Assembly (NCBI RefSeq): GCF_001511835.1
Contig: NZ_LN997848.1
Location: forward strand, 3,500,001-3,564,000
DNA from: Magnetospirillum sp. XM-1
GTDB taxonomy: Bacteria; Pseudomonadota; Alphaproteobacteria; Rhodospirillales; Magnetospirillaceae
DNA length: 64,000 bases
Direction: 5' to 3'
Within the stretch, counting starts at the first letter, position 1. Each line of letters starts with the position of its first letter. Below, one piece after another: positions 42,458 through 63,262 of this stretch. The translations under genes were made by a program, and so were the position numbers. Below the pieces are notes generated by a model. That model saw nothing but the letters and a program-made list of their open reading frames with translations, was not told the origin of the DNA and ran no database searches.

Positions 42458-45400
42458 ATGCGCGTCCAGCGTCACTACACCAAGTCCGGCGAAACCGCCT
42501 ACGACGGAATCGTGTTCCGCAAGGCGACCAGCGAGATCCGCAACCCCGACGGTTCGGTGGTGTTCTCCGCCGCCGACATCGAGGTCCCCGCCGACTGGTC
42601 GCAGGTGGCCTGCGACGTCCTGGCCCAGAAGTATTTCCGCAAGGCCGGCGTGCCCGCCAAGCTGAAGCGCGTCGCCGAAAAGGGCGTGCCCGACTGGCTG
42701 TGCCGCCACGAGCCCGATGCCGAGGCCCTGGCCAAGCTGCCCGAGAAAGAGCGCATCGTCGGCGAGAAGAGCGCCAAGCAGGTGTTCGACCGCCTGGCGG
42801 GCACCTGGACCTATTGGGGCTGGAAGGGCGGCTATTTCAACGCCGAGGACGACGCGCTGGCCTTCCGCGACGAGATGGCCTGCATGCTGGCCCGCCAGAT
42901 GGGCGCCCCCAATTCTCCGCAGTGGTTCAACACCGGCCTGCACTGGGCCTACGGCATCGACGGCCCCGGCCAGGGCCATTCCTATGTGGACTTCAAGACC
43001 GGCAAGCTGGTCCGCTCCAAGTCCGCCTACGAGCATCCCCAGCCCCACGCCTGCTTCATCCAGTCCATCGAGGACGACCTGGTCAATGAAGGCGGCATCA
43101 TGGATTTGTGGGTGCGTGAAGCCCGCCTGTTCAAGTACGGCTCGGGCACCGGCACCAACTTCTCGCGGCTGCGCGGCGAGGGCGAGAAGCTGTCGGGCGG
43201 CGGCCGCTCGTCGGGCCTGATGAGCTTCCTCAAGATCGGCGACCGCGCCGCCGGCGCCATCAAGTCGGGCGGCACCACGCGCCGCGCCGCCAAGATGGTG
43301 GTGGTGGACGTGGACCACCCCGACATCGAGAACTTCATCTCGTGGAAGGTGCGCGAAGAGCAGAAGGTGGCCGCCCTGGTGGCCGGTTCCCGCCTCGCCC
43401 AGCGCTGCCTGACCGAGGTGATGGCCGCCTGCCGCGAGTGGGACGGCCAGGACGGCGAGGCCCGCTTCGACCCCAAGATCAACAAGCGCCTGAAGAAGGC
43501 CATCATCGACGGCCGCAAGTGCGAGATCCCCGAGAACTACCTGCAGCGTGTCATCCAGTTCGCGCGCCAGGGCTATACCCAGATCGACTTCCCGGTGCTG
43601 GACACCGACTGGGATTCCGAGGCCTACCTGACCGTCTCGGGCCAGAATTCCAACAACTCGGTGCGCGTGGACAACGCCTTCCTGAACGCCGTGATCAATG
43701 ACGGCGAGTGGAACCTGAAGCACCGCAACTCGACCAAGATCGCCAAGACGCTGAAGGCCCGCGACCTGTGGGAGCAGATCGGCGAAGCCGCCTGGGCCTG
43801 CGCCGATCCGGGCATCCAGTTCGACACCACCATCAACGAGTGGCACACCTGCCCCGAATCGGGCCGCATCAACGCGTCGAACCCCTGCTCGGAATACATG
43901 TTCCTGGACGACACCGCCTGCAATCTGGCGTCCTTGAACCTGCTGTGCTTCCGTAACGAGGACGGCTCCTTTGACGTCGAGGGCTTCCGCCACGCCTGCC
44001 GGCTGTGGACCATGGTCCTCGAGATCAGCGTGCTGATGGCCCAGTTCCCCTCGCCCAAGATCGCCGAGCTCTCCTACGAGTTCCGCACGCTGGGCCTGGG
44101 CTACGCCAATGTGGGCGGCCTCTTGATGGCCGCCGGCATTCCCTATGACAGCGAGAAGGGCCGCGCCCTGATCGGCGCCATCACCGCCCTGATGACCGGC
44201 GAGTCCTACGCCACCTCCGCCGACATGGCCGAGGAGCTGGGCGCCTTCGAGGGCTTCGAGAAGAACCGCGCCGCCATGATGCGGGTGATCCGCAACCATC
44301 GCCGCGCCGCCCATGGCATGGGCACCGGCTACGAGGGCCTGTCGGTCACCCCGGTGCCGCTGGACGCCGCCAACTGCCCCGACGCGCCTTTGCTGGCCGC
44401 GTCCCGCCAGGCCTGGGACGAGGCGCTGGCCAAGGGCGAGAAGCACGGCTTCCGTAACGCCCAGGCCACCGTGGTCGCCCCCACCGGCACCATCGGCCTG
44501 GTGATGGATTGCGACACCACCGGCATCGAGCCCGACTTCGCCCTGGTGAAGTTCAAGAAGCTGGCCGGCGGCGGCTACTTCAAGATCATCAACCGCATGG
44601 TGCCCGAGGCGCTGGCCAATCTGGGCTACAACGAAGGCGACATCGCCGAGATCATCCGCTACGCGGTCGGCCATGCCTCCTTGCGCGGCGCGCCGCACAT
44701 CAACCACGACACCCTGAAGGCCAAGGGCTTCGACGATTCCATGCTGGACAAGATCGAGTCCCAGTTGGAAAGCGCCTTCGACATCAAGTTCGTGTTCAAC
44801 AAGTACGGCCTGGGCGAGCAGTTCTGCACCGAGACCCTGGGCATCCCCAAGGAGAAGCTGGACGACTACAGCTTCGACATGCTGGCCTTCCTGGGCTTCT
44901 CGCGCCAGGAGATCGACGCCGCCAACACCTACGTCACCGGCGCCATGACCCTGGAAGGCGCGCCCTTCCTGAAGGACGAGCACTTGGCCGTCTTCGACTG
45001 CGCGTCCCCTTGCGGCCGCATCGGCAAGCGCTTCCTGTCGGTGGACAGCCACATCCGCATGATGGCCGCCGCCCAGCCCTTCATCTCGGGCGCCATCTCC
45101 AAGACCATCAACATGGCCAACAACGCCACGGTCGAGGATTGCAAGAACGCCTACATGCTGTCCTGGCGTCTGGGCATCAAGGCCAACGCGCTGTACCGCG
45201 ACGGCTCCAAGCTTTCGCAGCCGCTGCAGGCCGCCTTGCTGGAAGACGCGGGCGAGCTGGCCGACGATCTGGCCGACGCCTCCATGGCGGCCCGCACCGA
45301 GATCGTCGCCGAGCGCATGGTGGAGCGGGTGATCTCCCAGGTGCACGCCCGGCGCAAGCTGCCCGACCGCCGCAAGGGCTACATCCAGAAGGCCATCGTC

Positions 45401-46129
45401 GGCGGCCACAAGGTGTATCTCCACACCGGCGAGTACGAGGACGGCAAGCTGGGCGAGATCTTCATCGACATGCACAAGGAAGGCGCCGCCTTCCGGGCCA
45501 TGATGAACAACTTCGCCATCGCCATCTCGGTGGGCCTGCAGTACGGGGTGCCGCTGGAGGAGTTCGTGGAGGCCTTCACCTTCACCCGCTTCGAGCCCTC
45601 GGGCATGGTGGAAGGCAACGACACCATCAAGATGTCGTCCTCCATCCTGGACTACATCTTCCGCGAGCTGGCCATCTCCTATCTCGGCCGTAACGACCTG
45701 GCCCATGTGGAGCCCGCCGACCTCACCCCCGACACCGTGGGCCGCGGCGCCCAGGAGAACCTGCCGGAGGCCGCCGTGGCCGCCGCCGCCGCCCAGCAGC
45801 TGGCGGTGGTCGAGAAGGTGGCGTCGCGCGGCTACGTGCGCTCGTCCAACCTGCTGTTCATGACGCGGGGCTCGGGCCCCACCTCGGTGTCGGCCGACAT
45901 CTCGGGCGGCGCCATGCAGCTGGCGGCCGCCGCCCAATCGGCGGTCAGCGTCGCGGTCAACGCCGAAGCCCTGATCCAGGAGTTCGACGCCCGCGCCGAA
46001 CAGATCCGCGCGGCGCGCATGAAGGGCTATGAAGGCGACGCCTGCCCCGAATGCGGCAACTTCACCCTGGTGCGCAACGGCACCTGCCTGAAGTGCGACA
46101 CCTGCGGCGGCACCACCGGCTGCTCCTAA
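42458..46129 (+). CDS. nrdJ: Adenosylcobalamin-dependent (class II) ribonucleotide reductase
   Basis: 1223 residues. An N-terminal segment precedes the catalytic ten-stranded barrel, with NSPQWFNTG near residue 153, [34 protein letters not shown] near 474, and the late [18 protein letters not shown]. The C-terminus is a Cys-rich zinc-ribbon-like tail ([26 protein letters not shown]) that regenerates the active-site disulfide. It reduces ribonucleotides to deoxyribonucleotides with adenosylcobalamin, with or without oxygen. AGCAGAGGGG precedes the ATG. Long antisense frames opposite it are composition artefacts. Confidence 0.97.
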
Positions 46130-46145
46130 ACCAAGCCAACCCGGC

Positions 46146-46182
46146 TATGCCGCGCACCATAGTTTGGCCGGTGCGCGGCATA
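46146..46182 (+). terminator. Perfect hairpin after nrdJ
   Basis: TATGCCGCGCACC (46146-46158) and GGTGCGCGGCATA (46170-46182) are exact 13-bp complements around an 11-nt loop, 16 bp after the nrdJ stop. No U-run follows. A second stem (GGGCCGGCTCTC at 46262-46273 with GAGAGTCGGCCC at 46278-46289, one wobble) lies between here and hamA. Chromosomal synteny probably ends in this spacer. Confidence 0.6.
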
Positions 46183-46350
46183 ACCTGGCCCAAACGAAGC
46201 AACAGCATGCCGCAGCCAGTTTTGAGGGACCGTTCTTTCCTCTCTTGGGGCCCTCATTTAAGGGCCGGCTCTCAACAGAGAGTCGGCCCAAAATTGGGGA
46301 ACAAATAGGGGGCGACCATTGGGACACTGGCTCGCGCTAGGAGGCAAGGC

Positions 46351-47130
46351 GTGGTGCAGTTCAATGATTGGTGCCTTTCGGTGGACGAGCAGATCGGCAA
46401 CCACTTCCGCAGGGTGATGACCGGCCAAGCCGCAAGCCTTCCGAATGGAATTCAGGCAACGGCGGCCGTCGTGCCGGGGCACTACGCGTCGGAAGAACAG
46501 GTGGCACGCGCACTCGCCCGTCTTGGAAAGTCGGCTGCGGCTGCGCTGGTCCAGGGCAAGCTCCCGACCACGAAGGCGATCCGCTCCGGGGATCTTGGCG
46601 AAATCTTCGCAACGGAATGGATTGATGCGCATAGCGGCGGCTATCAAGCTCCGATTAAGCGTCTGCGCTGGAAAGACCATCGCAACATGGCTATGCGCGG
46701 CGACGACGTCATTGGCATTCTGCAAGACGCCCAGACCCAGCGCCTCCATTTCCTAAAAACGGAGGCGAAGAGCCGCGCCAGCCTGACAGCCCAGGTCCTC
46801 ACCGAAGCCCGGGCCGGCCTGGACAAAGATGGTGGACTACCGTCTGCCCACGCGCTTTCCTTCATCTCGGCACGCCTTCTTGAGTTGGACAATCTGCCAC
46901 TCGCCGACGCGATCGATGACGCGTTGCTCAAGCATGGAATCCGGGCGGAAAACGTCCGACATCTGCTCTTCACCTTTTCCGGCAATGCGCCGGAGGCCTT
47001 GTTAACGGCCTCGCTGCAGTCTTACCGGGGACCAATCAATCAGTGGGGGATCGGCCTGCATGTAGAGGGGCACGCCGCCTTCATCGGCGCCGTCTATGAG
47101 CGAGTGATTGCCGATGCCAACAACGCCTGA
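46351..47130 (+). CDS. HamA/DUF1837-like nuclease of a Hachiman-type defence system
   Basis: 259 residues resembling the HamA/AbpA (DUF1837) effector family. The PD-(D/E)xK-type residues are visible in order: E84 in GDLGEIF, D118-D119 in MRGDDVIGI, and E138-x-K140 in FLKTEAKSR. The family cuts DNA non-specifically once released by its helicase partner. It starts with GTG at 46351 behind AGGAGG. It overlaps the helicase gene by 17 bp. Base and codon use look less GC-biased than flanking genes, consistent with transfer. Assignment is by motif pattern, not by a search. Confidence 0.72.
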   Translation: MVQFNDWCLSVDEQIGNHFRRVMTGQAASLPNGIQATAAVVPGHYASEEQVARALARLGKSAAAALVQGKLPTTKAIRSGDLGEIFATEWIDAHSGGYQAPIKRLRWKDHRNMAMRGDDVIGILQDAQTQRLHFLKTEAKSRASLTAQVLTEARAGLDKDGGLPSAHALSFISARLLELDNLPLADAIDDALLKHGIRAENVRHLLFTFSGNAPEALLTASLQSYRGPINQWGIGLHVEGHAAFIGAVYERVIADANNA

Positions 47131-49288
47131 GGCAATCGCGGCTGACATCGCAGAAGCGGCAACCGCCGGCTTTCGCGGCCGCCTTATTGCGCGCGGCCAG
47201 GCGCGCGCAATAATTTGGCGAGATGGCGTGCTTCCGCCCGACGCCCCGGCCTTTGCCCCGCAACTCAGCTACGACTTGCATTCCTACGGCTATGCCCTTC
47301 TCAACCTCGGCCTTCGCCTGCGTGAACTCGGCGGTAACGCTGCACAGGCGCGCACCGCCTTCGAGCAGGCGGCCACCGCCCTTGAGGCCGTGATCGCCAA
47401 GGGGAATCGCCAGGAGGCCGATCAGGACTTCCACTTCATCATTGCCGCAGCGAGCTATCATCTCGCGCATCTCTCCGCCCGAGCATACTCCCTGCTCGCG
47501 CTCGTAGAAGCCGACGAAAATTTCGCGAATACAGAACGGCTGCTTGCCCTTTTGATGCGGCGAAATTTCACCGCCCTGCGCGCCAATGTGCTCGACTATC
47601 GGGCATCTGGCCAAGGCAGCGATGCCCGAATTGCGGCCGCCATTCAGGCTAACCTCGATCAAGCCGAGGCAGATGCCGACTTGGCCTATGGCGACAGCGC
47701 GCTCCTCTTCGACGGACTCGACACGGCACTGACCGACGTCTTCATTGCGGCCATGTCGATATTCCTTCTTGCGCTGGAACGCGGCGAGAAGCCACTGCTC
47801 GATCAGGCGATGGAGCAGCTTCGGACAGGTCTCTCCATCTGCAGCGAGATGAATATGCTGCCGCAATGGTGGACGTATCGAATAGCGATCCACCTACTGT
47901 CGGACCTCTGGTCGAACACCTTCCATGAGAAGGTGCCGCTCCAGCCCGTTGGCAGCGAAGCAGCTGACTGGCCTCGAATGCGCGAGTTGTTCATCGCGCT
48001 ACTCCAACGGCGGGAGAAGGCTGAGGTCGACCTGTGGCCGTCACAGATCGAGGCAGCAACCCGCGCGGTGGACCAATCCGATGATTTAGTGGTATCGCTG
48101 CCCACCAGCGCTGGCAAAACACGCATCGCCGAGCTGTGCATCCTGCGCTGCCTCGCCGGCGGCAAGCGAGTGGTTTTCATCACGCCACTGCGCGCGCTGT
48201 CAGCGCAAACCGAAACGACCCTGCAGCGGACCTTCGGTCCGCTCGGCAAAACGATCTCGGCGCTCTATGGTAGCATCGGTGTAAGCGGCTTCGATGAGGA
48301 TGCGATCCGTGAACGCGATATCGTCGTCGCGACCCCGGAGAAGCTCGACTTCGCGCTCCGCAACGACCCGTCCCTTCTTGATGACGTCGGCCTGCTCGTC
48401 TTCGACGAAGGTCACATGATCGGCCTCAATGAGCGCGAGGTCCGCTACGAGGTGCAGATCCAACGGCTGCTTCGCCGCCCGGACGCGCACCAGCGCCGGA
48501 TCGTCTGCCTATCTGCAATCCTACCTGACGGCGACCAACTCGACGACTTTGCTGGGTGGCTGCGGCGGGATCACCCGGGCGGCCTGATCAAGCATGATTG
48601 GCGGCCGACCCGGCTGCGGTTCGGTGAGGTCGTCTGGTCATCGCCCACTGCGCGCTTGAACCTACGTGTCGGCGACGAGCGCCCCTGGGTCCAGCGTTTC
48701 CTTACAGGGAGCGCACCTCCGAACTGGGTGCCGCCAAAGAAGCGTCGTACCCGCCTTTTCCCCGGCGACCAGCGAGAACTCTGTCTCGCGACGGCCTGGC
48801 GGCTGGTCGAGGATGGACAGACTGTCCTCATTTTCTGCCCGGAGCGGCGCAGCGTCGAGCCATTTGCAGATGTGATCGTCGATCTCCATGAGCGCAGCGC
48901 GCTAAGCTCGTTGCTCGGGGCCGCTCCTGCCGTCCTCAACACAGCAATCGCCCTCGGCGAAGAGTGGCTCGGACCCGACAGCGCCATCCTCAAGTGCCTG
49001 CGCCTCGGCGTTGCACTGCACCACGGCGCCCTGCCTACGGCCTACCGCAAAGAAGTCGAGCGCCTGCTACGCGACAACGTCCTCAAGGTCACCATTTCGT
49101 CACCGACACTGGCGCAGGGGCTCAATCTGTCCGCCACCGCCGTCGTCATGCACTCTCTCCATCGCTATGGCGAACTGATCGATATATCCGAGTTCAAGAA
49201 CGTCATCGGGCGAGCCGGACGGGCCTATGCCCGCATTGCGGTGGCTGATACCATCACCTCGCGAATCGCATTTCTGAGAAACTCATAG
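47114..49288 (+). CDS. HamB-like superfamily 2 helicase, C-terminally truncated
   Basis: 724 residues. An N-terminal helical region (about 1-300) leads into a Ski2/Hel308-like helicase core: Walker A PTSAGKT (330-336), DEGH box F430-DEGH434, SAILPDG motif III, and motif VI VIGRAGRA (697-704). Only 20 residues follow motif VI, and these (YARIAVADTITSRIAFLRNS) are read from the antisense of a tniQ 3' region. Related helicases normally continue with winged-helix and ratchet domains. The ATG at 47114 lies inside the hamA end, so the pair is coupled. The protein is probably damaged, though the ATPase core is complete. Confidence 0.75.
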   Translation: MPTTPEAIAADIAEAATAGFRGRLIARGQARAIIWRDGVLPPDAPAFAPQLSYDLHSYGYALLNLGLRLRELGGNAAQARTAFEQAATALEAVIAKGNRQEADQDFHFIIAAASYHLAHLSARAYSLLALVEADENFANTERLLALLMRRNFTALRANVLDYRASGQGSDARIAAAIQANLDQAEADADLAYGDSALLFDGLDTALTDVFIAAMSIFLLALERGEKPLLDQAMEQLRTGLSICSEMNMLPQWWTYRIAIHLLSDLWSNTFHEKVPLQPVGSEAADWPRMRELFIALLQRREKAEVDLWPSQIEAATRAVDQSDDLVVSLPTSAGKTRIAELCILRCLAGGKRVVFITPLRALSAQTETTLQRTFGPLGKTISALYGSIGVSGFDEDAIRERDIVVATPEKLDFALRNDPSLLDDVGLLVFDEGHMIGLNEREVRYEVQIQRLLRRPDAHQRRIVCLSAILPDGDQLDDFAGWLRRDHPGGLIKHDWRPTRLRFGEVVWSSPTARLNLRVGDERPWVQRFLTGSAPPNWVPPKKRRTRLFPGDQRELCLATAWRLVEDGQTVLIFCPERRSVEPFADVIVDLHERSALSSLLGAAPAVLNTAIALGEEWLGPDSAILKCLRLGVALHHGALPTAYRKEVERLLRDNVLKVTISSPTLAQGLNLSATAVVMHSLHRYGELIDISEFKNVIGRAGRAYARIAVADTITSRIAFLRNS

Positions 49289-50175
49289 GCGCTGTCCCCC
49301 TTTCGATAAAGAAGCCAGGTGTGAAGGGTTCCAAAGAAAGCGTTTGCACCGGCCGCGTTCTTGCCCTTGGGCCAATGCTCCATGCCGGCACGAAGGGCGG
49401 CGCGAAGAGCGTCTTGACCGGCGCTGAGGATGTCGAATCCGGTAGTTTCCACCTCGCGTCGCTGATCATCGGAGAGGTGCTTCAGGCCTGCCCTGGGGCC
49501 AAAGCGGAGGAATGTACCGATGACTAGGCTGGCCTGGGGGACGGCATAGAAAGGTAAAGCATCAACCAATTCGTTGATCGCCGGCTTGGTGGCGCTGAGG
49601 CGTGCATGGAGATAGCACTCCAACTCGGTTGGTACTCTCCGTTCAGCAGTATCCAATTGGTGTTCGATCTCCCGAAGGAAGGGCTGAATTCGGGAGGCAA
49701 AATCGTGGAATTCAGCAGCCCGCCAATGTGCATTCTTGGGCCGAATATCGGCAGCGACCAGGGCGACGTGGTGCTCGACGCAGATCGAGACCGGGGTAAG
49801 GAGCCAAGCCGTCCGGCCGGCGGGGGCTGCTGCGCCAGCATCACCCCACCGGGAAAGATCGGCTGCGACGCAAGCCGGACACACCATGAGTTGGTTCATA
49901 GAGCGTCGGAGGGCGGGCTCGATCAGGTTGTTTCCGCAGGCGTAGTCGAATCCGTCAAACCTTAGGGCACAGGACCGTAGTTGCTCGATATCGGCCCCAC
50001 CGAGGTTCGCGAGCTGTAAAAGGGCCTCGTCAGTGCCGGTGATTACGTCGCGAAACGCAAAGCCCATGTCGCGGCAAAATTCCCCAACGGACGGGCACCG
50101 GTTCCTATGGGCGAGACGTGAGCAGAAGCTGGTGGCACTTTCGCCGGGGAGAAGGGGGACGCGGAGCCTGAGCAT
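49225..50175 (-). pseudogene. tniQ: TniQ N-terminal half
   Basis: 316 residues in frame, starting MLRLRVPLLPGESATSFCSRLAHRN, the typical TniQ opening. A zinc-binding region follows (MVCPACVAADL and later SICVEHHVALV). TniQ directs transposition target choice in Tn5053/Tn7-type elements. Relatives continue into a C-terminal helix-turn-helix half, which is missing: the frame ends just after AIREVMVSATA, exactly where it runs into the hamB end on the other strand (64-bp overlap). The missing half appears at 50740-51657 on the plus strand. It starts 2 bp after the tniB frame ends, the normal arrangement. Confidence 0.72.
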
Positions 50176-50177
50176 GG

Positions 50178-50658
50178 TCAGTTTCCCTCCCTTGTTGGGT
50201 CAACTCGAAGGCGGGAGTTCTCTGGCCTGATCTCGTGCCACCTGGGCGACAAGAAGATGTTTTCCGAGCGTTCGCAGCTTCGTTCAGCCGCGTAGGCTGC
50301 CGCAAAATCACCGACCAGGATCGAGCCGTCGTAATCGGGGCGCTCGGCCGCCTGCAGGACATGGTCGCGGCGCGGTAACGCAAAGGATCGCCTCCTTAAG
50401 GCCGGGAATCGAATCGATTGCCCGCTCAATCGCCCAGGTTTTGCCGGTGCCGGAGGCTCCGATGACCGCCAGTATCCGTCCTTCAGGGTGTGCGCCAGAC
50501 AGTGAGGCAATGGTACCGTCCACCCATCGCTTCACCTCGCCGCTGAGCGTCTTGTCCCGCAGGGTCGTGATATAGCGACCGTACAGCCGGCGAGACAGGT
50601 CGAAACGCTGGTGTCGGGCAGAGTCCATGGTGTTAATCAAGTGTTCAAGGTCGTCCAT
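50178..50658 (-). pseudogene. tniB: TniB/TnsC-like AAA ATPase, internally deleted
   Basis: The 5' part (50658 to about 50390) starts MDDLEHLINTMDSARHQRF behind AGGAGTG and contains Walker A GASGTGKTWAIERA. The frame then breaks: this frame stops at 50308, while the frame that ends just before tniQ covers the 3' part (50178 to about 50400). Total length is about 480 bp, against roughly 900 bp for a typical tniB, so an internal deletion with frameshift is likely. The Walker B region is not visible. Confidence 0.65.
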
Positions 50659-50663
50659 GGTGG

Positions 50664-50763
50664 TCACTCCTGCATCCAGTCGTCGGGGCAGCCAAATTCG
50701 CTGTCTGCCACGTCGGGCTTGACGAGGTTCCGCCGCTGATCGAATGGGGCGGCAAACGAGCCG
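50664..50763 (-). pseudogene. Possible 3' tail of a tniA transposase
   Basis: An open frame of about 33 codons ending 5 bp before the tniB start reads ...FDQRRNLVKPDVADSEF... and stops at TGA (50664-50666). In Tn5053-like elements tniA ends directly before tniB, so this is probably the last part of tniA. It is too short to identify by sequence alone; the call rests on position. Confidence 0.35.
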
Positions 50764-51657
50764 ATTTACGGGATCATCCCAGGCAATGAGCGTCTGCGAT
50801 CCGTTCTGACGGCCTCGGAAGAAACAGGGATGCATCCGAAGCGGCTTCAGCGTCTGCTCGTTTCCACGGGAGTGCTGAACGCCGATGCCGCCCATCTCAG
50901 CGCCCACAAGGCCACTTTCCTCGCCGACGACAGAACTTCCAGCATCCTCGCACGGATACTTCGCTGCCTCCCCAAAGGTGCAGCAGGAAAATACGTCAAC
51001 ACACCCCGCATCCAATTCGATCTGCTGCATAAGGCCGGGATTGTCACCCCGTTCATCAAGGCGGGTGGCGTACTGAAAGACCATGGGTTTGATAAGCGCG
51101 ACTTGGATATCTTTCTCGAACGATTGACTGCGCGAGCCCGCAGCCCCGTCCCCGAAAATATCGACGTCGCCCAAATCCCGACTGCTGCGAAACGGGCCAA
51201 CTGCTCGACGGTAACGGTGGTCCGTATGATCCTCGACGGCACATTGGACCGCATATACCGCCAAGCGGACATCGCTGGTTTCATGTCGATCTTGGTCGAT
51301 CCCAAGGAAATTCAGGCAGCACTGCTTAAGCCTGAACGCACCGGCCTCTCCATTAGCCAAGTCGAAGCACGAATGCGGTGGACGCGAAATGTTATATGCG
51401 GGTTGACCAGAAACGGGAGGCTCCCTGCCGGCAGCGCCCACAACCCCGTAACAAAACGCATTCAGATGATCATCGAGCCAAAAGATCTGGACGAGTTCGA
51501 TACGAAGTATGTGTCACTGTCCACCCTAAGCAAGGAGAAGCGATTGTTTCCGGGCACCGTCAGGGCTTGGTTGGGGGGCCTCGGTATCGAGCCTGCGTTT
51601 GATCCAAAGGCAGTTGGGGCCACGTTCTATCGCCGTGCCGAGCTGCCCACGGCCTGA
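50740..51657 (+). pseudogene. TniQ-like C-terminal half, lacking its N-terminus
   Basis: Open in frame from 50740 (after a TGA at 50737) to 51657; the first ATG is at 50830. The reading PGNERLRSVLTASEETG runs directly into MHPKRLQRLLV with no ribosome site, so homology starts upstream of any start codon, as in a truncated gene. Later parts have two helix-turn-helix-like stretches (AKRANCSTVTVVRMILDGTLDRIY, LSKEKRLFPGTVRAWLGGLGI). It looks like the missing second half of the tniQ at 49225-50175, now on the opposite strand. A good terminator follows. Confidence 0.6.
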
Positions 51658-51678
51658 GATCATCCGAGTACCGCCATC

Positions 51679-51715
51679 TGGCGCATCACGTGGATATGTG
51701 GTGCGCCATTTTTTT
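51679..51715 (+). terminator. Intrinsic terminator after the TniQ C-terminal fragment
   Basis: TGGCGCATCAC (51679-51689) pairs with GTGGTGCGCCA (51698-51708), with one G-T wobble, followed by seven T residues. It lies 21 bp after the stop at 51657. Confidence 0.8.
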
Positions 51716-51918
51716 ACTCATACCAGATATAGCTGGACGACCGCATGGCTTTTGACGCATTCTGCGGCGGTCAGTTGATTCGTTTCGGCCAGATTTAGCT
51801 ACGCGGCCACCATCCAGACCATTAAAAATCAATGGGTTATCTGGACACCTGAGGCATATTATGGTGTGCCTCACACCGGCGCGGATTCGAACTTAATCTC
51901 CTCGATCCGCGTAACGAA

Positions 51919-51955
51919 GGGCCGGCCCTCCCCCGGGGGCCGGCCCCATTTTTTT
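51919..51955 (+). terminator. Strong plus-strand intrinsic terminator
   Basis: GGGCCGGCCC (51919-51928) pairs with its copy at 51937-51946, then A and seven T residues (51949-51955). No plus-strand gene lies between the previous terminator and this one, so it may close a non-coding transcript or be left over from a gene displaced by the island. Confidence 0.75.
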
Positions 51956-51969
51956 GCCCGCCGCCTTGG

Positions 51970-52010
51970 GGCGGACAAAGAAAAGACCCCAGCCCGGGCG
52001 GGTTGGGGTC
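51970..52010 (-). terminator. Terminator of the 59-residue gene
   Basis: GACCCCA (51985-51991) pairs with TGGGGTC (52004-52010) and CCC (51993-51995) with GGG (52000-52002), separated by one mismatch on the minus strand. TTTTCTTTG follows on that strand. It lies 28 bp after the stop at 52038. Confidence 0.65.
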
Positions 52011-52037
52011 AATGAAGGGGGGAGAGTTCCCGCCGGT

Positions 52038-52217
52038 TCAGGCGGCTTGCCGAGAGTGACGCTCGGCGATGGGAGCCAGGATGTTGACCATTCCCGGATA
52101 GAGCACCATCAGGCGCTCGGCCTCGGCCCGGGCCAGTTCGCCCTCGACGTCCCGGCCATCGGCCTCGGCCTCGAGATGGGACAACAGGTCACGCACATCC
52201 TTCAGATTGAATGTCAT
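52038..52217 (-). CDS. Small protein of unknown function (59 aa)
   Basis: A 59-codon frame starting MTFNLKDVRDLLSHLEAEAD and ending HSRQAA. It is acidic and largely helical, with heptad-like Leu spacing that could form a coiled coil. Support comes from an excellent GGGAGGGGG ribosome site just before the ATG and a matching terminator after the stop. No family recognised. Confidence 0.65.
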   Translation of the reverse strand: MTFNLKDVRDLLSHLEAEADGRDVEGELARAEAERLMVLYPGMVNILAPIAERHSRQAA

Positions 52218-52430
52218 GCCCCCCTCCCATCGTTCTTCGACCTATTGATCCTAGCATCGGAGGGCGGAAAGGGACGCCCCACAACTCGTATCAGATTTAC
52301 ATGAAATATGACGAAAGTAAGCGCCCCGCCCCAGGACGTAGGTGATTGCACGTACACATCAAATTCGCTACCGTCGAATCGGTCCTCCGTCATCGTTGGA
52401 GGCGATGCGGGACCGAGTGGGGATGGAGCA

Positions 52431-53165
52431 ATGTCGGTTCATGCCGCCAGATTGATGGCGATCCTGGCCCTGTGCCTGTTCCTGGGAGGAACGGCGGCAG
52501 CCGAGCCGGTTCGCTTCGTCACCATCGACACCGCGCCTTGGGCCAGTGTCGAGCCGAAATCCGGCAAGGCGGAGGGTGTGTTTCCGGACATCGTCGCCGA
52601 GCTGAGCCGGCGGACCGGCCTGGACATCCAGATCGAGCTTCAGCCCTTCGCCCGCATCCCCCGCGAGTTGGAGACCAGCCGCCAGGACTGCACCATCCTG
52701 ATCTGGAACGAGCAATGGGCGCCGTTCATGGTTCAGGGCGAGGCGATCTCCAGCCATCCGGTGGGCGTGATCGCCCGCACGGGCCTGCGCCTGCGCTCCC
52801 ATGAGGATCTGCGCGGCCTGTCGGTCTCGGTGCTGCGTGGCCTGCCGCTCGGGCCCCGCTTCGATGGCGACGATTCGGTCCACCGGCAATACGACACCGA
52901 TTATCTCCAGGGCCTCAACAAACTGGCCCATGGCCGCGTCGACGCCGTGGCGGGCGCCTTGCCGACCATCGCCTTTTTGGCGGAGCAGAACGGGCTGGCC
53001 CGGCATTTGGGCGAGAGCCTGGAGCTGACCCAGATGCTGCTTCGCTTCCAGTGCGCCAAGGGATCGCGCCGCCTGGAGGTCATGCCGGCGATCAATGCCG
53101 CCATCCGCGCCATGATCGCCGACGGCAGCATCGAGCGCATCAAGGCCAGCCGGGATTATCACTGA
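52431..53165 (+). CDS. Periplasmic SBP_bac_3-type binding protein paired with a kinase
   Basis: 244 residues with a signal peptide (MSVHAARLMAILALCLFLGGTAAA) and a family 3 amino-acid-type binding fold: VRFVTIDTAPWASVEPKSGKAEGVFPDIVAEL, LRGLSVSVLRGLPLG, NKLAHGRVDAVAGALPTIAFL. GGGGA lies 7 bp before the ATG. No transport genes adjoin. Its stop overlaps the start of a membrane kinase by one base (TGATG), the same arrangement as the pair at 16991-19155. It probably senses a small polar ligand. Confidence 0.78.
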   Translation: MSVHAARLMAILALCLFLGGTAAAEPVRFVTIDTAPWASVEPKSGKAEGVFPDIVAELSRRTGLDIQIELQPFARIPRELETSRQDCTILIWNEQWAPFMVQGEAISSHPVGVIARTGLRLRSHEDLRGLSVSVLRGLPLGPRFDGDDSVHRQYDTDYLQGLNKLAHGRVDAVAGALPTIAFLAEQNGLARHLGESLELTQMLLRFQCAKGSRRLEVMPAINAAIRAMIADGSIERIKASRDYH

Positions 53166-54622
53166 TGCGGGACTCCGTCGGCCTCGCCGCATCCGGACGC
53201 AGGACAGGGCTGGCGACCCGGCTGCTGCTTCTGATTCTGGGCTTCAGCTCCCTGATCACCCTGATTTCTACGGCGGCCCAGCTCTATGTGGACTACCACC
53301 GCGACGTGGTGGCCATCGAGGGCCGCCTGAACGAGATCGAGCGCGGCAGTCTGGACAGCATCGCCGTCAGCCTGTGGAACGTGGACACAGAGTATCTGCG
53401 GCTGCAGCTGGAAGGCCTGCTGCGGCTGCCCGACATGCGGTCCCTGGAGGTCCGGGAAATCGGCGAGGGCCTGCGCTCGCCCATCGTCCTGGCCATGGGA
53501 AACCCGGCCGGGGCCCACGTCATCAGCCGGACCATGCCGCTGACCCGCACCGACGAGCGGGGAACCCGGCAGTTGGGAGTCATGGTCGCCACGGCCAGCC
53601 TGGACGGCGTCTACGCCCGCCTGGCCGACCGGGTGGCGCTGATCCTGCTGTCGCAATTCATCAAGACGCTGATCGTCTCGGCCTTCATCTTCTACATCGT
53701 CCATCTGGTGGTGACCCGCCACATCACCGCCATCGCCGCCCATTTCCGCACCATGGGCACCGAGGCGGATTCGCCGCCGCTGAAACTGGCCCGGCGGGGG
53801 CGGCGCGACGAACTGGCCGAGCTGGTGGATTCGTTCAACGCGCTCACCGTCAACCTGCACGAAAGCTACGCCCAGGTCTCGCGCAGCAATGCCAGGTTGG
53901 AGGCCGCCCAGACACTGGCCGACACGCGGGCGATCAAGCTGGAGGAGGCCAATGGCGAATTGCGGCGCCTGGCCATGGTGACCGCCCACCACCTGCAGGA
54001 ACCGCTGCGCCCCATGGCCATCAGCGCCCAGCGCATCCAGCGGCGAATCGCCGCAGACGAGACCGAACTGATGGAATGGTGCGCCTCCATCACCGAGGGA
54101 ACCGCGCATCTCGGCGCCTTGCTGCGCGATTTCCAGCGTTACGTGGCCGCCCTGACCGAGGAACCCAGGCTGGAAACCTGCGACATGGCCCAGCTTGCCG
54201 CCCAGGCCCGCGCCAAGGCCCTGGAACGGGGAGGAACCGAAGCGCGGATCGACCTTTCCCCCCTGCCCGCCCTGATCGCTGACAAACGGATGATCTCGCA
54301 GGTGCTGGACGAGCTGTTCGACAACGCCCTGCGCCATGCCCGCCCAGGCGTTCCGCCGGCCGTAAGCCTCTCGGCCGTTCGCGGCGACGATTGCTGGGAA
54401 TTCACGGTCAGCGACAACGGTCCGGGCTTCGATCCCGGCATCGTCGACAAGGTCCTGGAGGTCTTCGAGGTGACCCACGGCCGGGCCCCCGACCATACCG
54501 GCCTGGGCCTGCCCATGTGCCGGGCCATCCTGCGCGCCCATGGCGGGCGCGTCATCGTCGAGCCCTCGCCGTCGGGCGGGGTGGTGCGGTTCAGCCTTCC
54601 GGCCCCAATGGCGCCTACCTGA
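53165..54622 (+). CDS. Membrane sensor histidine kinase (intact paralogue)
   Basis: 485 residues: a membrane helix at about 18-40, a periplasmic domain to about 155, a second helix at about 160-180, a HAMP-like linker, a phosphoacceptor domain with VTAHHLQEPLRPM (His near residue 277), and an intact ATPase (N-box LDELFDNALRHARP, SDNGPGFDP, HTGLGLPMCRAI). The ATPase region aligns closely by eye with the degenerate kinase at 17806. No response regulator adjoins. It overlaps the convergent binding-protein gene by 8 bp. Confidence 0.85.
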   Translation: MRDSVGLAASGRRTGLATRLLLLILGFSSLITLISTAAQLYVDYHRDVVAIEGRLNEIERGSLDSIAVSLWNVDTEYLRLQLEGLLRLPDMRSLEVREIGEGLRSPIVLAMGNPAGAHVISRTMPLTRTDERGTRQLGVMVATASLDGVYARLADRVALILLSQFIKTLIVSAFIFYIVHLVVTRHITAIAAHFRTMGTEADSPPLKLARRGRRDELAELVDSFNALTVNLHESYAQVSRSNARLEAAQTLADTRAIKLEEANGELRRLAMVTAHHLQEPLRPMAISAQRIQRRIAADETELMEWCASITEGTAHLGALLRDFQRYVAALTEEPRLETCDMAQLAAQARAKALERGGTEARIDLSPLPALIADKRMISQVLDELFDNALRHARPGVPPAVSLSAVRGDDCWEFTVSDNGPGFDPGIVDKVLEVFEVTHGRAPDHTGLGLPMCRAILRAHGGRVIVEPSPSGGVVRFSLPAPMAPT

Positions 54623-55373
54623 CTCCCCGCTCCGCCCCGGTCCGGGCGATGATCTCGGCCACCAGGCGGGCGTTCTTGCCCAGCCATTCATCGAACTCGG
54701 CGACGATCTCGGGGGCCTTGACCGAGGACAGGCGGTAACTGTCGGCCGCATGGGGGAGATTGGGGGCGAAGGCCAGGTTTCCCGCCAGACCGGAAATGGA
54801 ATCGGCGGCGTTGAGGGCCACCGCCACATTGCAGTAGGCGCCGTCGACGCGCTTGGTATGGACCTGGCGCAGCAATTGCTCGAACGACGAATTCTCCTTC
54901 AGCTCCACCGCGCCCGATTTCAGGCGCTCGCCCCAGGCGAAGGGCGTGAAGCCGGCGATGGTGCCCAGGCTGTGAATGGCTTCCGGACCTTGGGACAGCA
55001 CCTCGCGCCGGACGATGGTTCCGTCGATGTAATGGATCACCGGCTTGGAAAACGCGGTGGTCCGCCCCTGGCGCAGGGCCGGCTGCCAATCGGGCGAATC
55101 GGGAAATTTGAGGTCGATGCCGCCGTGGTTCAGCTCGGCGTAAAGCCGCTTGACCGGCAGGGCCTGGAACGTCAGCCGATGCCCCCCCGCATTGGCGAAG
55201 GCGTCGAGAATCTCCCGCGCCGCCCCTTTGAACTGGCCGTCGATGACGCCGTAGACCGGGGAATAGTCGATGGCTTCGACGCCCACCACCAGATCGCGGG
55301 CCCGTGCCGGCGCTCCCACCAGGCATAACAGGGCGACGGCGGCGATACCGCCTCTTACCGATCTGAACCACAT
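54615..55373 (-). CDS. Periplasmic binding protein, SBP_bac_3-like
   Basis: 252 residues with a signal peptide (RGGIAAVALLCLVGAPARA) and a binding-protein fold: LVVGVEAIDYSPVYGVIDGQFKGAAREILDAFANAGG, VKRLYAELNHGGIDLKFPDSP. GGGGAG lies 9 bp before the ATG at 55373, which is better spaced than the ATG at 55382. No permease adjoins. It converges on the kinase at 53165 with 8 bp of overlap and may serve as an alternative ligand-binding partner, which is inference. Confidence 0.75.
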   Translation of the reverse strand: MWFRSVRGGIAAVALLCLVGAPARARDLVVGVEAIDYSPVYGVIDGQFKGAAREILDAFANAGGHRLTFQALPVKRLYAELNHGGIDLKFPDSPDWQPALRQGRTTAFSKPVIHYIDGTIVRREVLSQGPEAIHSLGTIAGFTPFAWGERLKSGAVELKENSSFEQLLRQVHTKRVDGAYCNVAVALNAADSISGLAGNLAFAPNLPHAADSYRLSSVKAPEIVAEFDEWLGKNARLVAEIIARTGAERGVR

Positions 55374-55528
55374 GCACGTCATCTCCCCAACAGAGCGGGC
55401 GAATTGAAGCACGCCGCCCCCCAGGTGATCAACAGTGACGAAACGTCACGGCCTTGACCGTTGTCAACGCCGGGGGGCCGCTGCCACAATTAGGGTCCGC
55501 CCCAAGCAAGGGGGCGAACGGAGAATCC

Positions 55529-56002
55529 ATGCTGAACAGAGTTGTCGCGGCGATCCTGGTCCTGCTGTCCATGGCGCCGGCTGCCGCCTCGGCCGACCCC
55601 CGCCCCTTCCTCCGCGGATCGTGGCAGACTCTGCTGCAGGCCCATGCCGGGCGGCCGCTGGTGGTGCATTTCTGGTCCCTGACCTGCGCCCCCTGCCTCG
55701 CCGAACTGCCGCAATGGCGCGAGACCGCCAGGAACGCCGGCATGGACGTGGTCCTGGTCACCACCGACCCGCCCGAGGACACGCCGAAGGTGGAACGCAC
55801 CCTGAAACGGGCCGGCCTGGACAAGGTGGAAAGCTGGGGCTTCGCCGATTCCTTCGTCGAGAAGCTCCGCTTCGAGATCGACCGCGAATGGCGGGGCGAA
55901 CTGCCCCTGACCATCCTGGTCTCGGCCTCGGGCAAACGGGAATCCCGGACCGGAACCCTCAGCCGCCAGGACATCGAGTCCTGGCTGGCTCAAGCTCGCT
56001 GA
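55529..56002 (+). CDS. TlpA/ResA-like periplasmic thioredoxin
   Basis: 157 residues with a signal peptide (about 1-22), a thioredoxin fold, and the redox motif C53-A-P-C56 in FWSLTCAPCLAELPQW. The cis-proline region is RGELPLTILVSASG. It probably reduces disulfides in the periplasm, for example in cytochrome c maturation or protection of metal sites; the partner is unknown. GGAG precedes the ATG at 55529. Single gene. Confidence 0.88.
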   Translation: MLNRVVAAILVLLSMAPAAASADPRPFLRGSWQTLLQAHAGRPLVVHFWSLTCAPCLAELPQWRETARNAGMDVVLVTTDPPEDTPKVERTLKRAGLDKVESWGFADSFVEKLRFEIDREWRGELPLTILVSASGKRESRTGTLSRQDIESWLAQAR

Positions 56003-56015
56003 CCGGGCCAGTTGA

Positions 56016-56249
56016 TCAGGCGTTGGGGCGCCAGCCGGCCACGAAGCTGTCGATATCGCTGATGCCGATATCCTTCAGCTCGCGATGATCCAGCCCGGCC
56101 AGTTCATCGCGCAGGCGGGCCCGCTCCATATGCAGGGCCAGGGGGGCGACGATGCGGCTGTCCAGGAAGCTGGCGGCCAGACCCAGGAGGGTGCGGCCCT
56201 CGGACACCGGAGAGGGAGCGCAAGGCCGGACGGTGGGGGAAAGGGACAT
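56016..56249 (-). CDS. DUF1127 small basic protein
   Basis: 77 residues ending in the DUF1127 motif: RARLRDELAGLDHRELKDIGISDIDSFVAGWRPNA. Family members are small arginine-rich proteins, some linked to phosphate and carbon metabolism through RNA interactions. AGGTG lies just before the ATG. It is convergent with the TlpA-like gene and divergent from ridA. Confidence 0.88.
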   Translation of the reverse strand: MSLSPTVRPCAPSPVSEGRTLLGLAASFLDSRIVAPLALHMERARLRDELAGLDHRELKDIGISDIDSFVAGWRPNA

Positions 56250-56412
56250 GGGACACCTGCTCTTGAATGACTTCAAGAAGCATATGGAACCATTGTGCGC
56301 CGCAACAATCCCCATGATTGCATGGCCCCATGCCGGCAACGCAGGCGTGGATGACAGGCGGGTCGGCAGGCGATAGTCTGTCCGCCCCACCACCACCTGT
56401 CAGGAGCGGAGA

Positions 56413-56880
56413 ATGAGCGGCCCCATCAGCCAACGCCTGAAGCAGCTGGGCATCGAGTTGCCCACCCCGCCGGCCGCCGTGGCCAATTACGTGCCCTTCG
56501 TGCAGACCGGCAACCTGGTGTTCATTTCCGGCCAGTTGCCGCTGGAAAACGGCAAGCTGGCGGTAACCGGCAAGCTGGGCGACAGCGTTTCCATCGAGGA
56601 CGGCATCCGGGCGGCGCGGCTGTGCGCCATCAACCTGCTGGCCCAGGCCCGCGCCGCTTCCGGCGGCGATATCGAGCGCATCCGGCGCCTGGTGCGACTG
56701 ACCGCCTTCGTGGCCTGCACGCCCGCCTTCACCGACCAGCCCAAGGTGATCAACGGCGCCTCGGACCTGATGGCGGAGGTGCTGGGCGAGGCCGGCCGCC
56801 ACGCCCGCGTCGCGGTGGGCGCGCCGTCCCTGCCGCTGGACGTGGCGGTGGAGATCGAGGGGATCTTCGAGCTGGGCTGA
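56413..56880 (+). CDS. RidA/YjgF-family enamine/imine deaminase
   Basis: 155 residues of the RidA family, the slightly longer subgroup. Key features are YVPFVQTGNLVFISGQLP, VRLTAFVACTPAFTDQPKVINGASDLM, and the terminal EIEGIFEL. Members hydrolyse reactive 2-aminoacrylate-type enamines. The catalytic arginine of RidA proper (RxxxxxxxLP near the end) is not obvious here, so activity may differ. GGAG lies 6 bp before the ATG. Confidence 0.85.
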   Translation: MSGPISQRLKQLGIELPTPPAAVANYVPFVQTGNLVFISGQLPLENGKLAVTGKLGDSVSIEDGIRAARLCAINLLAQARAASGGDIERIRRLVRLTAFVACTPAFTDQPKVINGASDLMAEVLGEAGRHARVAVGAPSLPLDVAVEIEGIFELG

Positions 56881-56896
56881 TCCGGGAACCGGGCGG

Positions 56897-58024
56897 TCAG
56901 GCGGCGGTTTCGGCCAACAGCACGTCGCCGCAGCCGATCACCCGGTCCTTGCCCGATTGCTTGGCGGCGTACATGCGGTGGTCGGCGCGCTCGACCAGTT
57001 CGTTCCAGCTTTCGGTGCCGTCGGCGATGCGCTCGGCCACTCCGATGGAGGCGGTCAACGGCCGTCCGTCGGGACGCATGCCCAGGCCGGCCGAGCGCAG
57101 ACGGGCGACGGCGATGGCGGCCCCCGCCGGATCGGTGTTGGGCATCACCGCCAGGAATTCCTCGCCGCCCCAGCGGATCAGGATGTCGCCCCGGCGCAGC
57201 ACCTTGCGCAGCGAGGTGGACGCGGCGCGCAGCGCGTTGTCGCCTTCCTCGTGGCCGTACTTGTCGTTGATGGACTTGAAGTTGTCGAGGTCGACGAAGG
57301 CCAGCGACAGCGGAATCTTCGAGCGCATGGCGGTGACGAATTGCTGCACCAGCATTTCCTCGCCCACCCGGCGGTTATAGGCCCGCGTCAGGCCGTCATG
57401 GGACGACTGGTCCACCAACTGGCTCATGAAGTGCAGTTGGCTCATGCCCGACAGGGTCGCCACCATGGCCAGCAGCAGCAAAAGCCACTGGGCGCCCAGA
57501 TGGGACGCGAAGGGCAGCAACTGATACCCCAGAACGCCGGTCAGGAAATAGGCCACCACCAGCGGCAGACCCAGCAGCGCGCCTTCCAGGGCGGTGATGG
57601 GAAACACCGACAGGCCCGCCACCATGACGAAGGGCAGGAAGGCGTAGCCGGCGGCGATCACCTGCTGCGCCGGATCGTTGATGGCGAACTGGGCCAGCAG
57701 CGGATGGCTGATCAGGAAGAACACGGTGGGAATGGTCAACAGCCACACCAGCCCCCAGCGGGCCACCGCCACGCTGTCCGAACCGCGATAGGACAGCGCC
57801 AGCAGCACGAAGGCGATGGACGCCATCACGCGCAGCGCCGCCAGATACATGGCCAGCGTGGTTTCGAAGATGATCAGGTCGACCGGAATCCACAACGGCG
57901 TCAGCACGGCGAAGGTCGCCGCCACCAGCCGGACGCGCGACAGGATCAGAAGCGAACGGCGGCGTTGGACGAAGGCTGACTGGCGGGTGGGCAGGAATAG
58001 ATCGAAGATTTCTGACATCGTCAT
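56897..58024 (-). CDS. Membrane diguanylate cyclase
   Basis: About 375 residues: six hydrophobic helices in residues about 30-200, then a GGDEF domain starting SSHDGLTRAYNRR, with the active GGEEF signature near residue 287 and DLDNFKSINDKYGHEEGD before it. The I-site RxxD is present as RRGD five residues or so before the signature, so product inhibition is possible. It should make c-di-GMP in response to a membrane signal. The start is uncertain between ATG 58024 and 58018; no strong ribosome site is seen. TTTATAAC direct repeats lie upstream at 58053 and 58065. Confidence 0.88.
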   Translation of the reverse strand: MTMSEIFDLFLPTRQSAFVQRRRSLLILSRVRLVAATFAVLTPLWIPVDLIIFETTLAMYLAALRVMASIAFVLLALSYRGSDSVAVARWGLVWLLTIPTVFFLISHPLLAQFAINDPAQQVIAAGYAFLPFVMVAGLSVFPITALEGALLGLPLVVAYFLTGVLGYQLLPFASHLGAQWLLLLLAMVATLSGMSQLHFMSQLVDQSSHDGLTRAYNRRVGEEMLVQQFVTAMRSKIPLSLAFVDLDNFKSINDKYGHEEGDNALRAASTSLRKVLRRGDILIRWGGEEFLAVMPNTDPAGAAIAVARLRSAGLGMRPDGRPLTASIGVAERIADGTESWNELVERADHRMYAAKQSGKDRVIGCGDVLLAETAA

Positions 58025-58257
58025 TCCGGAGAACACGATACCCAGAACCTTCTTTATAACGGCTTTTATAACAAGCACGTCGCGCCTTCCTTATACCCTT
58101 TGCGCACCAGGGCTGACGGTAATGCGGTACTGGAATCGTTGCAAGGAAAACTACTTCCTTGGGGTATGCCCCCGAGACGAAGAGAAACATGCTTTCGTTT
58201 GTCCCCACCTTCCATTTGCTGCCCACCTTTTATCTGCCGATTGACGCACCCCCGGTT

Positions 58258-58281
58258 AATTCGGTATTACGATACCAAATT
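58258..58281 (+). promoter_or_regulatory. Palindromic operator overlapping the paaI promoter
   Basis: Arms AATTCGGTAT (58258-58267) and ATACCAAATT (58272-58281) match in 9 of 10 positions as an inverted repeat with a TACG centre. A -35 TTGACG (58241-58246) and a -10 TATTAC (58265-58270, 18-bp spacer) overlap it, and paaI starts 30 bp downstream. A TetR-type repressor such as PaaR would fit; identity is not established. Confidence 0.6.
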
Positions 58282-58310
58282 GGGCGATAGACCCGCGGGA
58301 GTGAAACACG

Positions 58311-58766
58311 ATGCCCCACAGGGCAACCGAGGACAGCCAGCGCCAGGCCCTGGCCGAGCGCGTCGGCGAGGCGTTCAGCCAGCGCGATACCGCATCGCGC
58401 CTGCTGGGCATCGGGCTGGACGAGATTCGTCCGGGCTATGCCCGCCTGTCCATGACCGTGACCGGCGACATGCTCAACGGCGTCGGCATCTGCCACGGCG
58501 GCATCACCTATACCCTGGCCGACACCGCCTTCGCCCACGCCTGCAACGCCTATAACCGGATGGCGGTGGCGCTGTCTTGCACCGTCACCTACCCCGCCGC
58601 CGCTCGGGCGGGCGACCATCTGGTCGCCGAATGCCGGGAAATTCACCGCAAGGGCCGCAACGGCACCTACGACTGCACCGTCACCACCCAGACCGGCGAG
58701 GTGGTCGCCCTGTTCCGCGGCCAGTGCCGCATCCTCGAAGGCCATATCGTCGAAGGAAATCCATAG
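58311..58766 (+). CDS. paaI: PaaI-type hydroxyphenylacetyl-CoA thioesterase
   Basis: 151 residues of the hotdog thioesterase family with the PaaI signature GDMLNGVGICHGGITYTLADTAF and SCTVTYPAAARAGDHL. It rescues CoA from dead-end intermediates of phenylacetate degradation. GGGAG precedes the ATG. The stop is immediately followed by the paaJ start, so the genes are one unit. Confidence 0.93.
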   Translation: MPHRATEDSQRQALAERVGEAFSQRDTASRLLGIGLDEIRPGYARLSMTVTGDMLNGVGICHGGITYTLADTAFAHACNAYNRMAVALSCTVTYPAAARAGDHLVAECREIHRKGRNGTYDCTVTTQTGEVVALFRGQCRILEGHIVEGNP

Positions 58767-59969
58767 ATGACCGAAGCGCTGATCTGCGACTACACCCGCA
58801 CCCCCATCGGCCGCTACGCCGGCGTGCTTTCGGGCGTTCGCACCGACGATCTGGCCGCCCACCCCATCAAGGCGCTGATGGCGCGCCATTCCGGGCTGGA
58901 TTGGAACCTGCTGGACGAGGTGGCCTACGGCTGCGCCAACCAGGCGGGCGAGGACAACCGCAACGTGGCGCGCATGGCCCTGCTGCTGGCCGGCCTGCCC
59001 TTCTCCATCGGCGGCACCACACTTAACCGCCTGTGCGGATCGGGCATGGACGCGGTGGGCTACGCCGCCAGGGCCGTGATGACCGGCGAGGCCGAGCTGA
59101 TGATCGCCGGCGGCGTGGAAAGCATGAGCCGCGCGCCCTTCGTCATGAACAAGGCCGACAGCGCCTTTTCCCGCGACGCCCGCATCTACGACACCACCAT
59201 CGGCTGGCGCTTCGTCAACGCCCAGATGGAGAAGGCCTACGGCACGGATTCCATGCCGGAGACCGCCGAGAACGTGGCCGAGCAGTTCAAGATCGCCCGC
59301 GAGGACCAGGACGCCTTCGCGCTCCGCTCCCAGGCCAAGGCCTCGGCGGCGCAGAAGAACGGTCGCCTGGGCCAGGAGATCTCTCCCGTCACTCTGCCCG
59401 CCCGCAAGGGCGACCCGGTGGTGGTGGCCAATGACGAGCACCCGCGCGAGACCACCATCGAGACCCTGGCCAAGCTGAAGGCGCCGTTCCGCGCCGGCGG
59501 CTCGATCACGGCGGGCAACGCGTCGGGCGTCAACGACGGCGCGGCCGCCCTGCTGATCGCCTCGCCGGCCGCCGCCAAGGCCCATGGCCTGACCCCCATC
59601 GCCCGCATCCTGGGCATGGCCACCGCCGGCGTCGAGCCGCGCGTCATGGGCATCGGCCCGGTGCCGGCCACCAACAAGCTGCTGGCCCGCCTGGGCCTCT
59701 CACTGGCCGACATCGACGTCATGGAGTTCAACGAGGCCTTCGCCGCCCAGGCCCTGGCCTGCACGCGGGCGCTCGGCCTCGCCGACGACGATGCCCGCGT
59801 CAATCCCAACGGCGGGGCCATCGCGCTCGGCCATCCGCTGGGCATGACCGGGGCGCGCATCGTCGGCACCGCCGCGCTGCAGCTGGCCCAGACCGGCGGC
59901 AAGCGGGCTCTGGCCACCATGTGCATCGGCGTCGGCCAGGGCATCGCCATGGTCATCGAGAAAGTTTAA
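58767..59969 (+). CDS. paaJ: 3-oxoadipyl-CoA/acetyl-CoA thiolase
   Basis: 400 residues, a full-length thiolase. The nucleophilic cysteine is C90 in [10 protein letters not shown]; the other signatures are [23 protein letters not shown] and CIGVGQG. It cleaves 3-oxoadipyl-CoA to succinyl-CoA and acetyl-CoA at the end of the phenylacetate and beta-ketoadipate pathways; PcaF is the near-identical alternative name. It sits directly between paaI and paaK, which supports PaaJ. Confidence 0.93.
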
Positions 59970-60028
59970 CCTGTAACTGTCCTGGCGGAGACCCCGACAG
60001 AGGGTCCCGCCGCTTCGGGAGGATGTTT

Positions 60029-61357: not shown

Positions 61358-61364
61358 GGATAAG

Positions 61365-61419
61365 GGCCCCCTCCCCAACCCTCCCCCCAGCGTCGCTGGG
61401 AAGGGTCGGGGTGGGGGCC
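61365..61419. terminator. Long bidirectional hairpin between paaK and the MgtC gene
   Basis: A near-perfect stem of over 20 bp: GGCCCCCTCCCC at 61365-61376 pairs with GGGGTGGGGGCC at 61408-61419, one mismatch inside, and pairing continues through ACCCT/AGGGT and CCCAGC/GCTGGG to a tiny loop near 61392. It sits between convergent genes and should block read-through both ways. Confidence 0.7.
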
Positions 61420-61424
61420 TCCAA

Positions 61425-63245: not shown

Positions 63246-63262
63246 GTCCTCTTATGATGCCT

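Follow-up and report, generated by a model that had tools for sequence, protein, structure and literature searches.

As described in PMC12278908, the helicase HamB of an intact Hachiman system restrains the nuclease HamA until damaged DNA is met, whereupon HamA degrades the DNA of the cell. The likely DNA-binding cleft of HamB is built from its winged-helix and C-terminal helical regions, the chain ends in an OB-like fold, and defence is abolished by deletion of either HamA or HamB or by mutation of the active site or the helicase site (PMC12278908). The same report proposes AbpAB, whose proteins share a distant HamA/HamB kinship, as a Hachiman variant in which AbpA combines an N-terminal Cap4-like nuclease domain with an inactive HamA-like domain (PMC12278908). 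Both Hachiman itself and its carriage as cargo by Tn7-like transposons are already known; in the defence-system table for Tn7-like transposons of PMC8649781 it has a count of 43.

The Hachiman locus of Magnetospirillum sp. XM-1 most likely represents defunct defence cargo: we consider it very probable that a Tn7-like remnant behind nrdJ carries the Hachiman pair and that a later rearrangement broke both hamB and the tns genes, leaving the pair defunct. The features of the locus, numbered within the window (the whole 64,000-nucleotide stretch of DNA that was analysed), are given below with the basis for each in parentheses.

42458..46129, plus strand: nrdJ, class II (B12-dependent) ribonucleotide reductase (Pfam Ribonuc_red_lgC, Ribonuc_red_2_N and TSCPD)
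46141..46145, no strand: left-hand CCGGC of the 5-bp target duplication (comparison with the unoccupied site of genome G011)
46146..46289, plus strand: transposon left end with hairpins and the motif GCGCACCATAGTTTGGCC at 46152-46169 (end-to-end similarity; presence behind nrdJ elsewhere)
46351..47130, plus strand: hamA, DUF1837 nuclease, complete (PADLOC and Pfam matches, HamA of 8VX9, active-site residues)
47108..49288, homologous part to ~49228, plus strand: hamB', Ski2-like helicase, 3'-truncated (profile, 8VX9, DNA homology)
49228..50175, minus strand: tniQ 5' part (TniQ domain), inverted and broken at the hamB junction (PF06527; alignment to the TniQ of genome G237)
50176..50663, minus strand: tnsC remnant lacking ~500 bp near 50360 (aligned to G237 tnsC at the DNA and protein levels)
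50664..50705, minus strand: tnsB, last ~13 codons (alignment to the 3' end of G237 tnsB)
50756..51657, plus strand: tniQ 3' part, opposite in direction to the 5' part (alignment to the TniQ of locus L126 and of G237)
51658..51875, minus strand: transposon right end; read inwards, its outermost bases are TGTGAGGCACACC (empty-site alignment, end-to-end similarity)
51876..51880, no strand: right-hand CCGGC of the 5-bp target duplication (comparison with the unoccupied site of G011)

The hamA frame starts with GTG, encodes 259 residues and overlaps the hamB' frame (46351-47130 and 47108-49288, respectively). Profile searches place its product in the Hachiman family, with a match to the PADLOC HamA model over the whole length (E 9.2e-117) and to Pfam PF08878 (HamA) at 41.1 bits (cut-off 25), the sole Pfam family to pass its cut-off. 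The nearest PDB structure is HamA of 8VX9, the HamAB complex of E. coli ECOR31, to which residues 1-258 are matched together with the D-E-K catalytic residues (PMC12278908); E138 and K140, altered in the E138A,K140A form 8VXY (PMC12278908), are aligned. The residues from which the original prediction had recognised a DUF1837-like first gene (E84, D118/D119, E138 and K140) are all there: none of the 66 relatives compared, retained from 75 HamA matches by cut-offs of 60% for identity and 90% for coverage, differs at E84, D119, E138 or K140, and position 118 holds D in 55 of them and E in 11. At the 89 columns conserved among these 66 relatives XM-1 HamA shows 0 departures, and the protein, as encoded, is full length with its nuclease site intact. 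Relatives of HamA at E <= 0.001 number 1,870, the best 120 of which were listed.

The second gene likewise bears out the Ski2-like helicase and the overlap that had been predicted, with PTSAGKT at residues 332-338, DEGH at 433-436 and every helicase motif up to motif VI in place. HamB' scores 1,246 bits against the PADLOC HamB model (reported E 0), with residues 3-708 covering profile positions 1-697 of 1,163, and its nearest PDB structure is again 8VX9, where it matches HamB residues 1-709 of 1,174. A housekeeping helicase, which would have refuted the prediction, was considered and rejected: among NCBIfam models of the Hel308 type the highest score is 177.6 bits, below the cut-off of 887, vs 1,246 for the HamB model. 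The AbpAB-like label, by comparison, has to be dropped, since unlike AbpA the XM-1 HamA stands alone at 259 residues with an intact active site, no Cap4-like fusion and HamA as its only Pfam family; the match of the helicase to AbpB (8zue) is weak and confined to residues 626-706. As for the notion of a defence pair, the two-gene Hachiman layout is borne out, but the term was overstated for a HamB without its C-terminal ~40%, a truncation that the first reading missed: the second frame has no natural end.

HamB homology ends at ~49228, just past helicase motif VI, and DNA homology to intact hamB breaks off at 49226-49229 in all 71 loci aligned past 49000 (79 loci aligned); the last ~18 residues of the hamB' frame, up to the stop at 49288, are antisense tniQ sequence. 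Comparison with the PADLOC model and 8VX9 shows that HamB' comprises the Ski2-like core and the N-terminal HamA-binding bundle but is incomplete, without profile positions past 697 of 1,163 or, in contrast to ECOR31 HamB, an equivalent of residues ~710-1174. Judging by the domain order along the published HamB chain, the lost ~40% should correspond to the winged-helix, C-helical and OB regions. A search for the missing 3' part found nothing within the 64-kb window, nor did one in the XM-1 genome, run without a positive control. Profile searches would nonetheless call a complete Hachiman system at this locus, a likely annotation error that our analysis corrects; such a call would mislead, as the sensor helicase appears to have lost its DNA-binding part.

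With the cleft-forming and OB regions gone, the XM-1 pair probably no longer defends. HamA would stay bound to HamB', which keeps the N-terminal bundle that binds it, or be insoluble, and in either case inactive. It is conceivable, though very improbable, that the locus is a functional Hachiman despite its short HamB, the 708-residue part sufficing both for sensing DNA damage and for releasing HamA. The full set of active-site residues, the helicase motifs up to VI and the open, conserved frames are consistent with such a system; against it stand the length of HamB elsewhere (frames of >1,050 residues in 71 of 79 related loci, 735-1,030 residues in four, and four running off contigs), the described contribution of the winged-helix and C-helical regions to the DNA-binding cleft (PMC12278908), and the coincidence of the hamB break with the rearrangement that destroyed the tns genes. 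Nor do we give much credence to HamB' having been retained as a holder of HamA, binding and restraining the nuclease in a truncated pair that is tolerated or selected. The HamA-binding N-terminal region is present and conserved, HamB alone is described as soluble and as solubilising HamA, which alone is not (PMC12278908), and ectopic Hachiman expression is described as mildly toxic (PMC12278908), all of which would suit a holder; yet HamA mutants that block the function of the complex are described as leaving cells viable (PMC12278908), which suggests that HamA needs activation by HamB. Defunct cargo remains our preferred reading, and one point against it is how little the coding sequences have decayed: besides the 0 of 89 in HamA, comparison of HamB' with 64 relatives gives two clear departures (Q106 and M291) among 339 conserved columns, three further listed departures resting on two sequences each. 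This near-absence of decay in hamA and the hamB stump implies that the break is recent or that the stump is still useful or constrained.

The two genes lie within a Tn7-like remnant of 5,730 bp (46146-51875) inserted just behind nrdJ. In eight of the 16 other genomes of the genus the site is empty, the nrdJ end lying <=30 bp from the terminator that starts at ~51876 in XM-1. Against G011, a close relative, homology on the left ends at 46145 and on the right begins at 51876, with five shared base pairs, CCGGC. The Hachiman pair is tied to a mobile element whose site is cleanly empty in G011. Both the 5-bp duplication (CCGGC on either side), also a trait of Tn7-like elements with defence cargo (PMC8649781), and the terminal repeats that mark a Tn7-like element are present. 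The outer 23 bases of the two ends, compared in register and inverted, agree at 16; of 127,954 places, 4 attain this level, both element ends counted among them. The two 200-bp ends give a local alignment score of 52, which was not equalled in 2,000 first-order resamplings or in 630 other window stretches; the repeats are imperfect, the outermost bases being TATG at the left end and TGT at the right. The change in base composition noted earlier is confirmed, as the insert has a G+C content of 0.606 vs 0.656 for the window and falls below each of 59 stepped 5.73-kb windows. So too is the placement of the island downstream of nrdJ, but what had been taken for neighbouring transposon remnants belongs with the Hachiman genes to one and the same element. 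In the genus, no further copies of the transposon part were found beyond its own copy and pieces of 31 and 26 bases, and the 64-kb window holds no RNA families or tRNAs as an integration site.

Homologues of tniQ and tnsC are both present in the element and both broken. The minus-strand tniQ 5' part passes the cut-off of PF06527 (TniQ) and matches residues 1-315 of G237 TniQ at 54% identity, while the 3' part, which contains a 275-residue open reading frame (50830-51657, plus strand), is 53% identical to the C-terminal part of the same protein. Because the two parts correspond to the N- and C-terminal parts of a single TniQ in both L126 and G237 (624 residues), tniQ was evidently split by an inversion: its broken 5' part meets the 3' end of hamB' tail to tail at ~49228, and the junction of its 3' part with tnsB falls between about 50706 and 50755. 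Queries with L126 TnsA and TnsB match nothing in window positions 46001-64000, the only trace of tnsB being the ~13-codon tip recovered by alignment to G237. TniQ has no other relative in 17 genomes of the genus, and relatives of the tniQ 3' part occur in one other of 317 genomes of the order and one other of 385 genomes sampled from the class.

The family membership, the truncation point, the split tniQ, both ends, the duplication and the empty sites in relatives are legible in the sequence itself, and the order of the rearrangement events is our reconstruction from it. A Tn7-like transposon of the TnsABC and TniQ type would have landed behind nrdJ in a Magnetospirillum ancestor, duplicating 5 bp and carrying the Hachiman pair between its left end and the tns genes. 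A later rearrangement would then have deleted the 3' ~40% of hamB, tnsA, nearly all of tnsB and ~500 bp of tnsC, and turned round a segment made up of the tnsB tip, tnsC and the tniQ 5' part, splitting tniQ and bringing that part tail to tail with hamB. As no complete tns gene is left at the locus, the remnant is presumably unable to move by itself. In comparison with Tn7-like elements that carry defence cargo (PMC8649781), relatives of the XM-1 element share the TnsA, TnsB, TnsC and TniQ set and, in L126 and G237, cargo upstream of tnsA; the XM-1 remnant differs in having no complete tns gene and in its site behind nrdJ.

That site may have a wider significance. Of 317 genomes of the order, 11 carry the 18-base left-end motif with at most one mismatch, a single time each (a reversed control pattern was found once), and in 10 of the 11 it lies 19-25 bp after the nrdJ stop codon; in the eleventh, G303, the 3-kb locus contains no nrdJ. 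On account of this placement nrdJ looks like a candidate attachment site for the TniQ group of XM-1 and G237, with cargo that varies and is often defence-related, and the finding points to Tn7-like elements with defence cargo landing at the 3' end of nrdJ. We lean towards a more general proposal, in which a small TniQ/TnsD Tn7-like subfamily would home, within this alphaproteobacterial order, to the nrdJ 3' end with exchangeable, often anti-phage cargo, its left-end hairpins replacing the nrdJ terminator. In the openly accessible literature searched, we found no mention of nrdJ as a Tn7-like site; 'nrd' is absent from the main text of the review PMC11406308 and 'ribonucleotide' from that of PMC10293859.

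Strong hairpins are predicted in the left-end stretch (z-score of folding -3.9), which suggests that it may be kept as, or be, the nrdJ terminator, and part of it could indeed serve as such. Taken further, the whole stretch would be a native 3' terminator of nrdJ with the element inside native sequence, and the nrdJ 'site' a location shared by chance, a reading that we regard as unlikely. It draws on the occurrence of the stretch once per genome behind nrdJ, even where no tns genes follow, a pattern that also weighs against the preferred account: no tns genes were detected downstream of nrdJ at E <0.4 in 11 genomes, several of the stretches being short (G006, G007, G011, G016, G031, G033, G038, G048, G052, G053 and G054), and no right ends with matching duplications stood out in the eight left-end genomes G006, G016, G007, G052, G053, G033, G054 and G031. 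A native terminator is, however, hard to reconcile with the patchy distribution of the stretch, found within the genus only in XM-1, G006, G007 and G016 while eight others run directly into another terminator, or with the exact 5-bp duplication at its outer edge and its in-register likeness to the right end. Furthermore, the closest tniQ-bearing element, that of G237, sits directly behind the left-end motif, there in two tandem copies. The stretch (46146-46289) is also 84-91% identical over ~133-149 bases behind nrdJ in G006, G016, G033, G047, G052 and G053, a likeness across genomes above that expected for an intergenic stretch.

An attachment site at nrdJ is also suggested by G237, which belongs to another family of the order, holds the closest relative with open tns genes and is, with XM-1, where TniQ elements were found behind nrdJ. 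Its order is nrdJ, the left-end motif twice in tandem (the second copy with two differences), a 1,442-residue gene, tnsA, tnsB, tnsC, tniQ and more cargo. TnsA, TnsC/TniB and TniQ score above their Pfam cut-offs; the Pfam matches of TnsB lie below theirs, and TnsB matches Methylobacterium TnsB at a tblastn E of 1.4e-99. G237 TniQ is identical to that of Rhodospirillaceae bacterium BRH_c57. The G237 and XM-1 elements share the left-end motif, the nrdJ site and a TniQ 53-54% identical over both parts; they differ in that G237 has open tnsA, tnsB, tnsC and tniQ frames and other cargo, with NACHT, MkoC-like and PD-T4-7 families past tniQ. No HamA or HamB match was found in the 35 kb searched there, and no right end of the element. 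The 1,442-residue protein between nrdJ and tnsA (locus L158, 7500-11825, minus strand) matches no Pfam or PADLOC family at E up to 0.001. At four loci with TniQ of ~26-31% identity, nrdJ was absent from the 19-25 kb covered. Twelve other TniQ relatives reach 46% identity or more.

Behind the motif in other genomes the content is mixed. G006 has Avs3a in two frames, G052 a weak Avs4 match and G053 a HEPN protein (PADLOC candidate family; Pfam below cut-off). What counts against a pure defence hotspot is the content in G054 (an RTX protein), in G007 (an IS110 transposase), in G033 (no family match) and in G016 (only a marginal LmuB match). The overlapping frames of G006 (locus L129, 4887-11140, plus strand) cover positions 3-781 and 813-2090 of the 2090 in the Avs3a profile, together most of its length, as in a split or frame-shifted Avs3 gene.

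Tn7-like carriage was also considered as a rule for XM-1-like Hachiman loci and rejected, tns genes being found within flanks of <=8 kb in one of 79. That one, in Salipiger mucosus (locus L050, 15621-18106), has TnsA and TnsB relatives ~5.5 kb downstream of the HamB match. On the Methylobacterium radiotolerans plasmid pNYY1_1 (L126, 1-13821), tnsA, tnsB, tnsC and tniQ are immediately preceded by CBASS genes, so the cargo is placed as deduced for the XM-1 element.
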